Translations under genes and position numbers: made by a program
The notes under the pieces: generated by a model
Seen by the model: only the letters and a program-made list of their open reading frames with translations
The model's database searches: none
Told to the model about the DNA's origin: nothing
From: Deltaproteobacteria bacterium
GTDB lineage: Bacteria > Desulfobacterota > Syntrophia > Syntrophales > UBA8958
Direction: 5' to 3'
NCBI GenBank assembly: GCA_029553375.1
Contig: JAKPCH010000011.1
Location: forward strand, 1 to 47,191
Length of the DNA: 47,191 nucleotides
Shown: positions 35,565 to 47,191 of the stretch, one piece after another
Layout of the letters: every line of letters starts with the position of its first letter
Position numbering within the stretch: position 1 is the stretch's first letter

Positions 35565-41080
<5,516 letters not shown>

Positions 41081-41372: not shown

Positions 41373-41416
41373 TCATAAATATGAGCGGAAACGAGCGGTT
41401 TATGAGCGCGCTCATA
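41371..41416. repeat. pair of TATGAGC palindromes at the end of the ATPase gene
   Basis: GCTCATAAATATGAGC (41371-41386) has 7-base arms around AA; TATGAGCGCGCTCATA (41401-41416) is a perfect 16-base palindrome that includes the ATPase stop codon. On the plus strand the second is followed by TTTTTT, so it could act as a terminator for plus-strand transcripts. Two spaced copies of the same inverted motif also suit a regulator-binding site. Confidence 0.5.
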
Positions 41417-43102
41417 TTTTTTGCCCTCGCTCATACCACGCGCCCTTGCGCTCACCGTGGCGGATCAGACGCCCATCCTTGACCAAGCGGTCGAGCAGGC
41501 GCGTGGCTTGAAAGGGGCCGATCCGGCACAACTCCGCAGCTTCCCGGCGTGTGATGCGCCCGTGCTTGTCCACGTACTGCAGCACCATCTGCTCCTGTTG
41601 CAGGGGCTCAAAGCCGCGGCTGCGCACATAGCCCGCCTTGTCGCCAAGCAGCCGGTAGGCCGCGGCGGAGAGGTGCCAGGTGCGGCCTTTTTTCTGCCCG
41701 CGCTCCTCGACGAGCCCGGCTTCGACCAGGCGGTGCAGCGCGGCGCGCGTGTCGGTCTCCGGCTTTTGCACGAGGTGGGCCGCTTCGTCAGTGGTGAGGC
41801 TGCGCGTCTGCCACAGGCAGTTGAGGATCAGCAGCTCATCGAGCGCGAGGTCGCGCCCCTGTTGGGATTCCGTCACCAGTAGGCGCACAAAGTCGAGGTT
41901 GGCCGCGCCGCCGGGGATGACGACGCTGACCGTGGCGTCATTGCTGCGCGCGTAGGAGGGGGCTGGGCGGCCGTTGCGCAGTTGTTCGTAGAAGATGGTG
42001 TCGATGCCGCGCGCGGTGCGCTCGACGATGCCGGCGCGCTTGAAAGCATCGGCAAGCAAGGGGTTGCGCGGTCGGGGCGCAGTGACGAGCAGGTTATCGA
42101 GCCGCACCCCTTCGGGAAAGCCGCCGGGGCTGGTGATCTCGATCTGGTCGGTCTGCCACTGGAAGTGCACGGCGCCGAGGCGTTGGTAGTCGCGGTGGAT
42201 CAGCGCGTTTGCCAGCGCCTCGCGCAACGCGCGTTCCGGGTAGTCGGGCACGCCCACGCGCAGCAGCCCCACCATCAATTCCTGTTCGCGGTTGCGGGCG
42301 CGGATGCGCGTCTCGATTTCTTCCATCGTGCGTAGCAGCGGCCAGCGGAAGAAATCGTTGACTTCGACCTGCAGCCTGCGCAGCACCTGGAAAGCGACTT
42401 CGTGACTGGGGACGAAACGGCGCAGGGCATCCTCCTTGCCGAAGAGCAGCAGCGCCGCCAGCCGAACCCCGCGCACGACGCCGTTGGCGTCTACCACGCC
42501 GAGTGCCTTGGCCAGTTCCAGGTCGGGCAGATCGAGAAGGGATTCGTCGCTGCCGCGCCGCTCGCGCACGCTGCGGCGAAAGCGCTCGAACTCGAGCGGG
42601 TCGAGGTGCTCCCAACGTGCGTCGGCGACGATTTGTGCCGATGGGTCGAGCAGCCCGCGGTCGGCCTGCAACGACTGCACGGCGTAACCGTCCATCGGCA
42701 CGCAGGCAAGCTTGCCGTCGCCACCCAGCGCGCGCTGCAGAAAGACGCCTTCGCTGGTCGCCACGGGTTGACGCTGAGGTGGAATTTCGATGGCGAGCAC
42801 GGTGAAGCCATCGATCTGGACGCTTTCGATCCGCACGGAGAGCGGAGGCCGGGTGCGGTTGGCGATCAGCGCGGCGACTCGCGCCAAGTCGGTTGCCGCG
42901 CCATGCCGGGGCCGCGCGCCGGTGACGCGGCCATCGTCTTCCACGCCGATGAGCAGATAGGCGGCTTCGTGGCCAACGCGATTGGCTAGGCAGACGACGG
43001 CTTCGATGAGCTGGCGATCGGTCAGCGACGCGCGTTCCTCGCCTTTGAATTCGACCGCGAGGGTCTCTCCGGCTGCGATGAGGGCGCGCAGCTTCTCTGG
43101 GG

Positions 43103-43106
<4 letters not shown>
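41412..43106 (-). CDS. AlbA_2/Schlafen-type protein with RecG-like ATPase C-terminal part
   Basis: A 564-residue protein found as an accessory gene in many type I restriction operons. The N-terminal 130 residues resemble the AlbA_2/Schlafen nucleic-acid-binding fold ('[15 protein letters not shown]', '[22 protein letters not shown]'). The middle has '[16 protein letters not shown]' near residue 300 and '[13 protein letters not shown]', typical of the HATPase_c_4 part of this family. The last 150 residues look like winged helices ('[29 protein letters not shown]'). Its ATG overlaps the hsdM stop (ATGA), so it is translated with the methyltransferase. Function is unproven; a regulatory or extra defence role is plausible. 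Its insertion has split hsdM from hsdS. Confidence 0.8.
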
Positions 43107-44770
<1,664 letters not shown>

Positions 44771-45077: not shown

Positions 45078-45085
45078 TGATATTA

Positions 45086-45148
45086 ATTGATAAGAACTTG
45101 CTTTTCGTTGTCGGCAGGATAGGAAACACGGACTTGTATGTCAAGAAA
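45086..45148. repeat. 63-bp direct repeat, copy 1
   Basis: Identical to 46953-47015 except for one base (A here, G there, in AAAC-A/G-CGG). It carries a minus-strand promoter (TTGACA, 17 bases, TATCCT). The two copies flank the PLAT-CVNH gene in the same orientation and lie upstream of the small cassette-type gene and the PLAT-CVNH gene respectively. Confidence 0.9.
45116..45144 (-). promoter_or_regulatory. sigma-70 promoter in repeat copy 1
   Basis: On the minus strand TTGACA (45144-45139), 17 bases, TATCCT (45121-45116, four of six matches). It points into the small cassette gene and, through attC A, toward the hsd operon, for which no nearer promoter is seen. Confidence 0.55.
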
Positions 45149-45150
45149 GG

Positions 45151-45181
45151 ATCAAAATGCTAAAAAAAGACCTGACCCCAT
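45151..45181 (-). other. GGGGTCAGGTC-type sequence downstream of the PLAT-CVNH gene
   Basis: On the minus strand AATGGGGTCAGGTC is followed by a run of seven T and TAGCATTTTGAT, starting about ten bases after the PLAT-CVNH stop. I recall similar GGGGTCAGGTCT sequences near REP-type transposases in deltaproteobacterial genomes; here no transposase adjoins. The T run may help termination but no stem is evident. Confidence 0.3.
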
Positions 45182-45188
45182 TCCTGCT

Positions 45189-46913
45189 TCATTTGCATGG
45201 GCCGCATATCAGATTGCCATCACAATTGGAAAGTCCCACGAAACAATTTCTCCAGTTGAGAGAAGATGGAGGGCCAGCCACACAGGCATATCTCTTCCTG
45301 CCTTTTTTGTCCTTGCAGTCATTGCAGCACATCCTATTGTCGTCGCCAAGAACGCACGAACCACAGCTTTTTTCAAAACTGCCCTGACACATCAGGTTTC
45401 CGTCTGTGTTCATGACGCCACCCGCACACTTGTCTGCCTGGGGAAGCTCAGTCGTACGGAATTCTCCCCCCGCAGCTTTTTCGCAAGAATTGCTGCCGCA
45501 CTTGCATTCGCATCGCAAGACCGCATTTTCGTCAAACGTGCATTCTCCGCAGGAATTCTTATAGCTTCCACCCGGGATGATTTTGCCCAATCGTTGAGCG
45601 GCGGGGGTAAGCTCCACTTTTCCGATCTTGACGTTTTTCGCCTCCGGCTTTGGCGGCGTCAATCCGGGATGGGCCGGCAAGCCGACAACTTCAATGCTTT
45701 TAACTATTCCTGCGGCCATGATGATGCTGGAACCGGTAATCATGGCGCCTGTATTGGTACGCAAGCTGGCCGTTACCCAATTAGATCCCGGCTGCGTCCT
45801 CCCGATCTTGCACAGATTCAACTCCGCTGCCTCGCCAGCGTTTTGTAGGCTGCCGAAAGAATTCACCAATTTCGCATAACCTTGACCTTCACTTACTCTC
45901 GCAAGAAATTCCTCATACGGCTTAACCATATCTTCCGGCTTATCACTGGTCAAATTAATGATCTTTTTGATTCTGTCTTTGATAATAGCGCCGCTGAAGG
46001 CGGCTTTCAGATCCTTTCTCGTCTCGGCGCCGTTTAATCGGATACAGGTTTGCATTTCCGGAAAACTGGCAATTCCAAAATTGATGGGTCCACCTACATA
46101 GGCCACCGAAGCCTTGGCAGCGATAGGCCACGATCCATATGTGTCGAAGTAGCCTTTGTGTCCCGCTTCCGCAACAGCGCCGCCGATCCAGGCATCGGCG
46201 TAAATGTAGAACCAACCGTTTGATTTGTAGGCGCTGGTTCGCGCTCGGGAAACAAATCCCGGAGCATTGGTCCATTCATATTTATCGTAGTAGGGAGGTG
46301 TAATGACAATGCTTTTGAGATGATCAGCTCGGGAAACGGTGATGTCTATCTTCTTGTCGTTTTCGTCCGTCGCCAGCCAGCGATTGACCATAAAAATATC
46401 CACCTCTCCTGTTTGCCGGTCTCTCACCCGGACAAGAAAAGGATACCACCCGGGCTTATCGCCTGTATTGTCATGCCGGAGGCGGATCGCTTTGATCCTC
46501 CCGCAATCTACTCTTAGATGCAAGGGAAAGTCATCCCACTGACCACGCTCAAAATAATCAGGTTTCGGCTTCTTCCTCTCTTCGTCCACTCTGGCTTTCC
46601 ACTCCGCATAAGCTCTTGGTGCTTTGCTCGGATCCGGAGGATGTCCAAAATCGATTACAGGCCACGTTAACTCAGTTTCCTCGGAGCTGCCCTTCTCCCC
46701 AATTAAAGTCAAATAAACCTTGGCATTCGTCCCTGCATTCTCAACATCCCCGGTCACTACCGCCACATCCTTCCAAAACGTAGGGGCCGGCTTAAAACTT
46801 TTCGCACCTGTTTTATTGTCTTTTGTCCGTTGGCCTTGGGAGAAGGCCGGGGAAAAGGGTGATAAAACAAAGGCAGAAAACAAAATGAGCGTAAAAATCA
46901 ATCTGTAAATCAC
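45189..46913 (-). CDS. secreted PLAT-CVNH domain protein
   Basis: 574 residues, starting at GTG 46913 with AGGAG nine bases upstream. Residues 1-26 are a signal peptide ('LIFTLILFSAFVLSPFSPAFS'). Residues about 50-190 fit a PLAT/LH2 beta-sandwich: 'VVTGDVENAGTNAKVYLTLIGEKGSS', 'FERGQWDDF', 'IKAIRLRHDNTGDKPGWY' and 'VRVRDRQTGEVDIFMVNRWL'. Residues 200-447 are of no recognised family. Residues about 448-574 form a Cys-rich CVNH-like double repeat, GSYKNSC...GGVMNTDGNLMC and GSFEKSC...VGLSNCDGNLIC, as in cyanovirin-N lectins, with about 20 Cys that could make disulfides. Likely an exported lipid- or sugar-binding protein. AT-richer than the core; flanked by 63-bp repeats. The frame is open upstream of the start to 47132. 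Confidence 0.75.
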   Translation of the reverse strand: MIYRLIFTLILFSAFVLSPFSPAFSQGQRTKDNKTGAKSFKPAPTFWKDVAVVTGDVENAGTNAKVYLTLIGEKGSSEETELTWPVIDFGHPPDPSKAPRAYAEWKARVDEERKKPKPDYFERGQWDDFPLHLRVDCGRIKAIRLRHDNTGDKPGWYPFLVRVRDRQTGEVDIFMVNRWLATDENDKKIDITVSRADHLKSIVITPPYYDKYEWTNAPGFVSRARTSAYKSNGWFYIYADAWIGGAVAEAGHKGYFDTYGSWPIAAKASVAYVGGPINFGIASFPEMQTCIRLNGAETRKDLKAAFSGAIIKDRIKKIINLTSDKPEDMVKPYEEFLARVSEGQGYAKLVNSFGSLQNAGEAAELNLCKIGRTQPGSNWVTASLRTNTGAMITGSSIIMAAGIVKSIEVVGLPAHPGLTPPKPEAKNVKIGKVELTPAAQRLGKIIPGGSYKNSCGECTFDENAVLRCECKCGSNSCEKAAGGEFRTTELPQADKCAGGVMNTDGNLMCQGSFEKSCGSCVLGDDNRMCCNDCKDKKGRKRYACVAGPPSSLNWRNCFVGLSNCDGNLICGPCK

Positions 46914-46952
46914 GACAGCCTTCTCCTTCCTGTTAGCGTCCGCTCTGAGATT

Positions 46953-47015
46953 ATTGATAAGAACTTGCTTTTCGTTGTCGGCAGGATAGGAAACGCGGAC
47001 TTGTATGTCAAGAAA
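46953..47015. repeat. 63-bp direct repeat, copy 2
   Basis: The second copy of the promoter-bearing repeat, 1.87 kb from copy 1 and in the same orientation, 40 bases upstream of the GTG start of the PLAT-CVNH gene. One mismatch in 63. Confidence 0.9.
46983..47011 (-). promoter_or_regulatory. sigma-70 promoter of the PLAT-CVNH gene, in repeat copy 2
   Basis: On the minus strand TTGACA (47011-47006), 17 bases, TATCCT (46988-46983). This gives a leader of about 60 bases to GTG 46913 with a good ribosome site. Confidence 0.6.
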
Positions 47016-47191
47016 ATCTTGACCACAAGATGTGGGTTGTTGCGCAGATGACCGTGTTGAAGGCACATTCCGACATCTATCCTTCCGAGAAACCCGTTCA
47101 CCTTCTGGTCGTTTCACCCGCAAAACTGGCATTATCGCCGGAATTCAGACAGACTTCACCGTCACGCATTTTTATGTGATGCGTTATGACT
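47016..47191. other. right edge, no gene recognised
   Basis: 176 bases upstream of the PLAT-CVNH promoter. An inverted repeat ACGCAT / ATGCGT (47164-47169 and 47179-47184) with a nine-base loop lies near the edge. The minus strand is open in the PLAT-CVNH frame from 47132 but lacks a signal or family. If an array of cassettes continues, its next attC would lie to the right. Confidence 0.3.

Follow-up and report, generated by a model that had tools for sequence, protein, structure and literature searches.

The minus strand of a 47,191-nucleotide stretch of DNA (analyzed as a whole, and referred to here as the window) carries a gene for a 574 aa protein in which a predicted export signal, a PLAT/LH2 domain, a module without known family (X), and a divergent cyanovirin-N-like (CVNH) domain are joined in a single reading frame. 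We favor, with modest confidence, an account in which this exported PLAT-X-CVNH fusion was acquired laterally, is driven by a promoter in the end of an insertion sequence (IS), and acts outside the cell as a glycan-binding adhesin or lectin. Both known modules belong to ordinary families, and no other genome searched had them in this combination; module X is new and uncharacterized, and with this protein the CVNH lectins, a family of poorly known natural role, gain a divergent bacterial branch rich in Cys.

Domain architecture of the predicted exported protein

The coding sequence (45189–46913) is uninterrupted, with 574 codons open from a GTG start at 46913 to the stop at 45189, and is preceded by a Shine-Dalgarno-like AGGAAGGAG (46923–46931); all features given below for the gene and its flanking IS ends likewise lie on the minus strand. 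Residues 1–25 (46839–46913) have the makeup of a typical Sec signal peptide without a lipobox, with predicted cleavage at AFS/QG, and a helix at residues 2–16 falls inside the sole well-scored part of a structure model computed from the single sequence (AlphaFold2 without an alignment, pLDDT 37 for the whole protein). Given the signal peptide and the many Cys, 18 of 21 of which are within the last 126 residues, the protein should work outside the cell or in an oxidizing compartment.

The PLAT/LH2 domain (residues ~49–187, 46353–46769) matched PF01477 with an E value of 5.4e-15 and 56.6 bits, above the Pfam cut-off of 23, and its closest solved relatives in the PDB are polycystin-1 and 5-lipoxygenase. 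The PLAT motif is complete, and alignment places within the domain an insertion of ~30 residues that is absent from the relative in genome G003, a member of the same family. PLAT domains bind lipids or proteins. Module X (residues ~196–415, about 220 aa, 45669–46328) had no match in Pfam, NCBIfam, or PDB, and modeling it as a single sequence gave a pLDDT of 36. Across a 395-genome sample of the phylum, X was found in the window genome, in G003 (52–53% identical, in a PLAT-X protein), and in G164, where, at 22% identity, it is the N-terminal part of a secreted CARDB-repeat protein; the weak, partial hits in G323 and G390 were attributed to chance. Since its companion is PLAT in G003 and a CARDB-containing protein in G164, X appears to be an exported module with changing partners. 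A Pro/Lys-rich linker (residues 416–448, 45570–45668), absent from G003, leads from X to the C-terminal domain.

The C-terminal domain (residues ~449–574, 45192–45569) comprises two half-repeats with 18 Cys, and was assigned to CVNH by profile and through its relatives. As a single sequence it scored 14.8 bits (E = 0.052) against PF08881, below the cut-off of 24.5, which is a score threshold and not a biological feature of the CVNH family, and it reached 16.5 of 80 bits for the NCBIfam mannose-binding lectin NF052356, far under that threshold. A profile (A4) built from the domain and its stand-alone secreted counterparts in two related genomes (G008 and G013) matched the cyanovirin-N structures 3s3y (4.6e-7) and 1n02 (9.3e-5) in the PDB. 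The same profile picked up proteins with multiple repeats from further genera of the phylum, with E values down to 2e-20 (G499), which themselves clear the PF08881 cut-off at up to 66 bits (G499); compared directly by BLASTP, the window domain and the G499 protein gave an E value of 4e-12. Alignment of the halves showed that both carry G-x-aromatic-x-x-S/T-C ... N-x-D-G-x-L, so that the domain shows the internal duplication of ~50 aa typical of the family, its Cys and N-x-D-G being conserved. Because the profile matches both cyanovirin-N structures and proteins that pass PF08881, and because both half-repeats keep the pattern, homology identifies the C-terminus as a true CVNH domain despite its sub-threshold Pfam score. 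The secreted G499 and G427 proteins (L023 and L026) have three CVNH half-repeats rather than two.

The ligands of CVNH domains are mannose-rich glycans. Both halves of the window domain keep the N-x-D-G Asn and Asp, which we take to be mannose-contacting parts of the cyanovirin-N sugar sites; the domain also has insertions and extra Cys compared with cyanovirin-N. Other residues presumed to make contacts in cyanovirin-N (e.g., E41, E56, T75, and R76) are replaced, and for this reason the glycan specificity is not inferable.

Separate modules in related genomes

In the order (155 genomes), matches to any part of the protein were confined to the window genome, G003, G008, and G013. G003 encodes a 411-residue secreted PLAT-X protein that has no CVNH, ends where the window linker starts, and is 53% identical to the window protein over the common part, and G008 and G013 encode the stand-alone secreted CVNH proteins described above. 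Since PLAT-X occurs without CVNH in G003 and CVNH stands alone in relatives, the gene appears to join modules that exist separately in related genomes, and the fusion can be dissected for that reason. Neither these 155 genomes nor the phylum samples yielded a second PLAT-CVNH protein, and the named genome collection had no full-length relative, the PLAT-X profile recovering there no more than the PLAT domain of a protein that differs in its other parts; a literature search likewise did not find CVNH and PLAT domains in combination. A single fused copy gives no basis for judging whether the fusion is conserved.

This co-occurrence survey, with one fusion found, agrees with the first-pass annotation of the locus, which had called the architecture unusual. 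That annotation had also predicted the N-terminal signal peptide and an unknown region between PLAT and CVNH, both borne out by the results above; its PLAT/LH2-like sandwich was confirmed outright by the PF01477 search, and its Cys-rich cyanovirin-N-like double repeat proved correct through the relatives, the PF08881 search alone being sub-threshold.

An IS91-family end with a predicted outward promoter

Positions 46950–47191 match the last ~240 bp, at the 3' end, of an IS91-family element, which terminates ~40 bp before the start codon of the gene and whose remainder is beyond the contig end. At L037, a stretch 90% identical over 241 bp starts four bases past a complete IS91-family transposase ORF (PF04986 and PF14319; Y2_Tnp and Zn_Tnp_IS91), so that the Y2/HUH transposase and zinc-binding domain characteristic of the family stand beside the terminus in this homologous element, that of the window being cut by the contig end. 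Matches stop at a common terminus, ...AAGTTCTTATCAA, and then run into unrelated DNA. Because the transposase ORF precedes the stretch in L037 and the terminus is shared, the upstream stretch can be recognized as an IS91-family 3' end. Within it lies an outward-directed, sigma70-like promoter sequence, TTGACA-N17-TATCCT (46983–47011), the boxes of which are conserved over 21 aligned IS-end copies. Transcription of the gene would probably start here, and such a promoter would explain in concrete terms how a gene is expressed after its acquisition. We take ISCR1, in which promoters of this kind are known, to be a relative of IS91.

A second, truncated copy of the IS end lies behind the stop codon (45084–45149; 63 nt at 98% identity). 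Its promoter boxes (45144–45116) are aimed at hsdM, and it is cut just upstream of the -35 box; a sequence model of the IS end (R1) gave 93.5 bits for the upstream copy and 61 bits for the downstream one. The gene is therefore flanked on both sides by a 63-nt direct repeat, of which the upstream copy runs to the contig end and another copy is present at the end of contig C90. These repeats seemed to be the recombination sites of an integron-like cassette, and are actually copies of the IS91-type end. The short gap that separates the stop codon from the truncated IS end (45149–45188) contains AAAAAAAGACCTGACCCC, which may be what is left of another repeat. The stand-alone CVNH protein of G008 (L014:4366-5106) follows, in the same frame, a piece of the zinc-binding domain of an IS91 transposase, and this appears to be a second link of CVNH genes with IS91-type elements.

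Of the 155 genomes searched in the order, 106 contained stretches related to the 278 bp upstream of the gene; a strict 58-nt pattern proved too restrictive for IS ends. By the sequence model, four other genomes of the order (G023, G073, G065, and G107) hold at least 93, 84, 54, and 39 copies, these counts being lower bounds from the 150 candidates scored per genome, and G003 had none. In ten stretches of sampled relatives, picked non-randomly for closely spaced copies and with crude ORF calls, 25 of 27 elements preceded an ORF on their own strand, in most cases by no more than about 110 bp. Arrays of such ends were considered as cassette arrays; dispersed promoters fit better because the genes between the ends are ordinary and diverse. 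It is a tentative proposition that the IS91-type end is one of a set of order-wide mobile promoters that move between genes, switch on acquired genes such as PLAT-X-CVNH, and rewire expression across the order. The copies may instead reflect a strong host promoter type common to the IS.

Origin, function, and alternative explanations

The G+C content of the gene (0.502) is far from that of equal-length stretches in the rest of the window (0.643 ± 0.024 SD; lowest 0.591). This contrast, 0.50 against 0.64 around the gene, suggests lateral acquisition. As for a phage or plasmid origin, no relatives of the protein or the IS end were found in viral contigs, phages, or plasmids. We propose that a secreted PLAT-X protein was joined to a secreted CVNH protein to give a gene for a disulfide-rich protein of three modules, and that the gene was acquired laterally. 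The protein most likely functions extracytoplasmically, as an adhesin or lectin for carbohydrates, and would bind (oligo)mannose-like glycans through its CVNH part and dock on a membrane lipid or partner protein through PLAT; our best guess is thus an exported adhesin or lectin forming a bridge from a glycan to a membrane or a protein partner.

It is rather unlikely, albeit the most serious of the alternatives considered, that CVNH and PLAT have lost glycan or lipid binding and instead play a structural part in some other kind of extracellular protein, such as one of the matrix, an appendage, or the cell wall. The changed contact residues in both CVNH sites, the extra Cys, and the occurrence of the third X relative in a CARDB-type exported protein are all in keeping with such a role, but the Asn/Asp pair retained in both half-repeats and the complete PLAT motif argue against it. 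An assembly chimera, or a gene in decay, would fit the single copy found and a position close to the contig end with repeats on both flanks; however, the frame is open throughout, composition is even across the joint, both joined parts retain their family motifs, and the flanking repeats are outside the gene and not at the joint, making this explanation highly improbable.

We regard as equally improbable a defense or anti-predator lectin acting with the adjacent type I restriction-modification (R-M) system. The genes hsdM, hsdS, and hsdR adjoin the gene on the same strand, and the promoter of the truncated IS end points at hsdM, yet PADLOC gave no match for the 574 aa protein among known defense families, an exported protein contrasts with a cytoplasmic DNA-cutting system, and the modules in G003, G008, and G013 adjoin unrelated genes. 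Moreover, the IS-end fragment separates the gene from hsdM, and the two differ sharply in G+C (0.50 vs. 0.66) and GC3 (0.54 vs. 0.91). Of the earlier interpretation, then, both domain calls and the unusual architecture stand, and the link to a defense cassette finds no support in view of the PADLOC result, the IS-end fragment, and composition. As genomic context of the gene, the IS end and its promoter are stronger than the R-M system. The R-M locus has features of its own: HsdR (35565–39158) includes a GIY-YIG nuclease domain (residues 810–879, E 4e-13) beside its usual domains, and a RecG-like protein with Schlafen/AlbA_2 and HATPase_c_4 domains (41412–43589) is encoded between hsdM and hsdS.

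Comparison with known systems

Functional outward promoters have been described in the 232-bp oriIS region of ISCR1 (PMC6218425). Ends of the ISCR1/IS91 type share with the window element a terminal region of ~240 bp after an IS91-type transposase, an outward sigma70-like promoter, and a variable gene downstream; the window element differs in lineage and sequence, its promoter is predicted from sequence, and its transposase would lie beyond the contig end. The full PLAT motif is common to the window protein and the PLAT/LH2 family (PF01477) of polycystin-1 and lipoxygenase but, unlike those, the domain here is part of an exported bacterial protein with module X and no recognized catalytic partner domain. 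Similarly, the CVNH family (PF08881; cyanovirin-N, 1n02/3s3y) shares two half-repeats with the family pattern and secreted relatives, whereas the window domain has 18 Cys, insertions, changed contacts, and a C-terminal place in a larger protein. In fungal type III CVNH proteins (CVNH-LysM), a LysM domain is inserted between the CVNH halves (PMC4926178); these proteins resemble the window protein in combining CVNH with another module, but in the window protein an intact CVNH domain is appended to PLAT-X.
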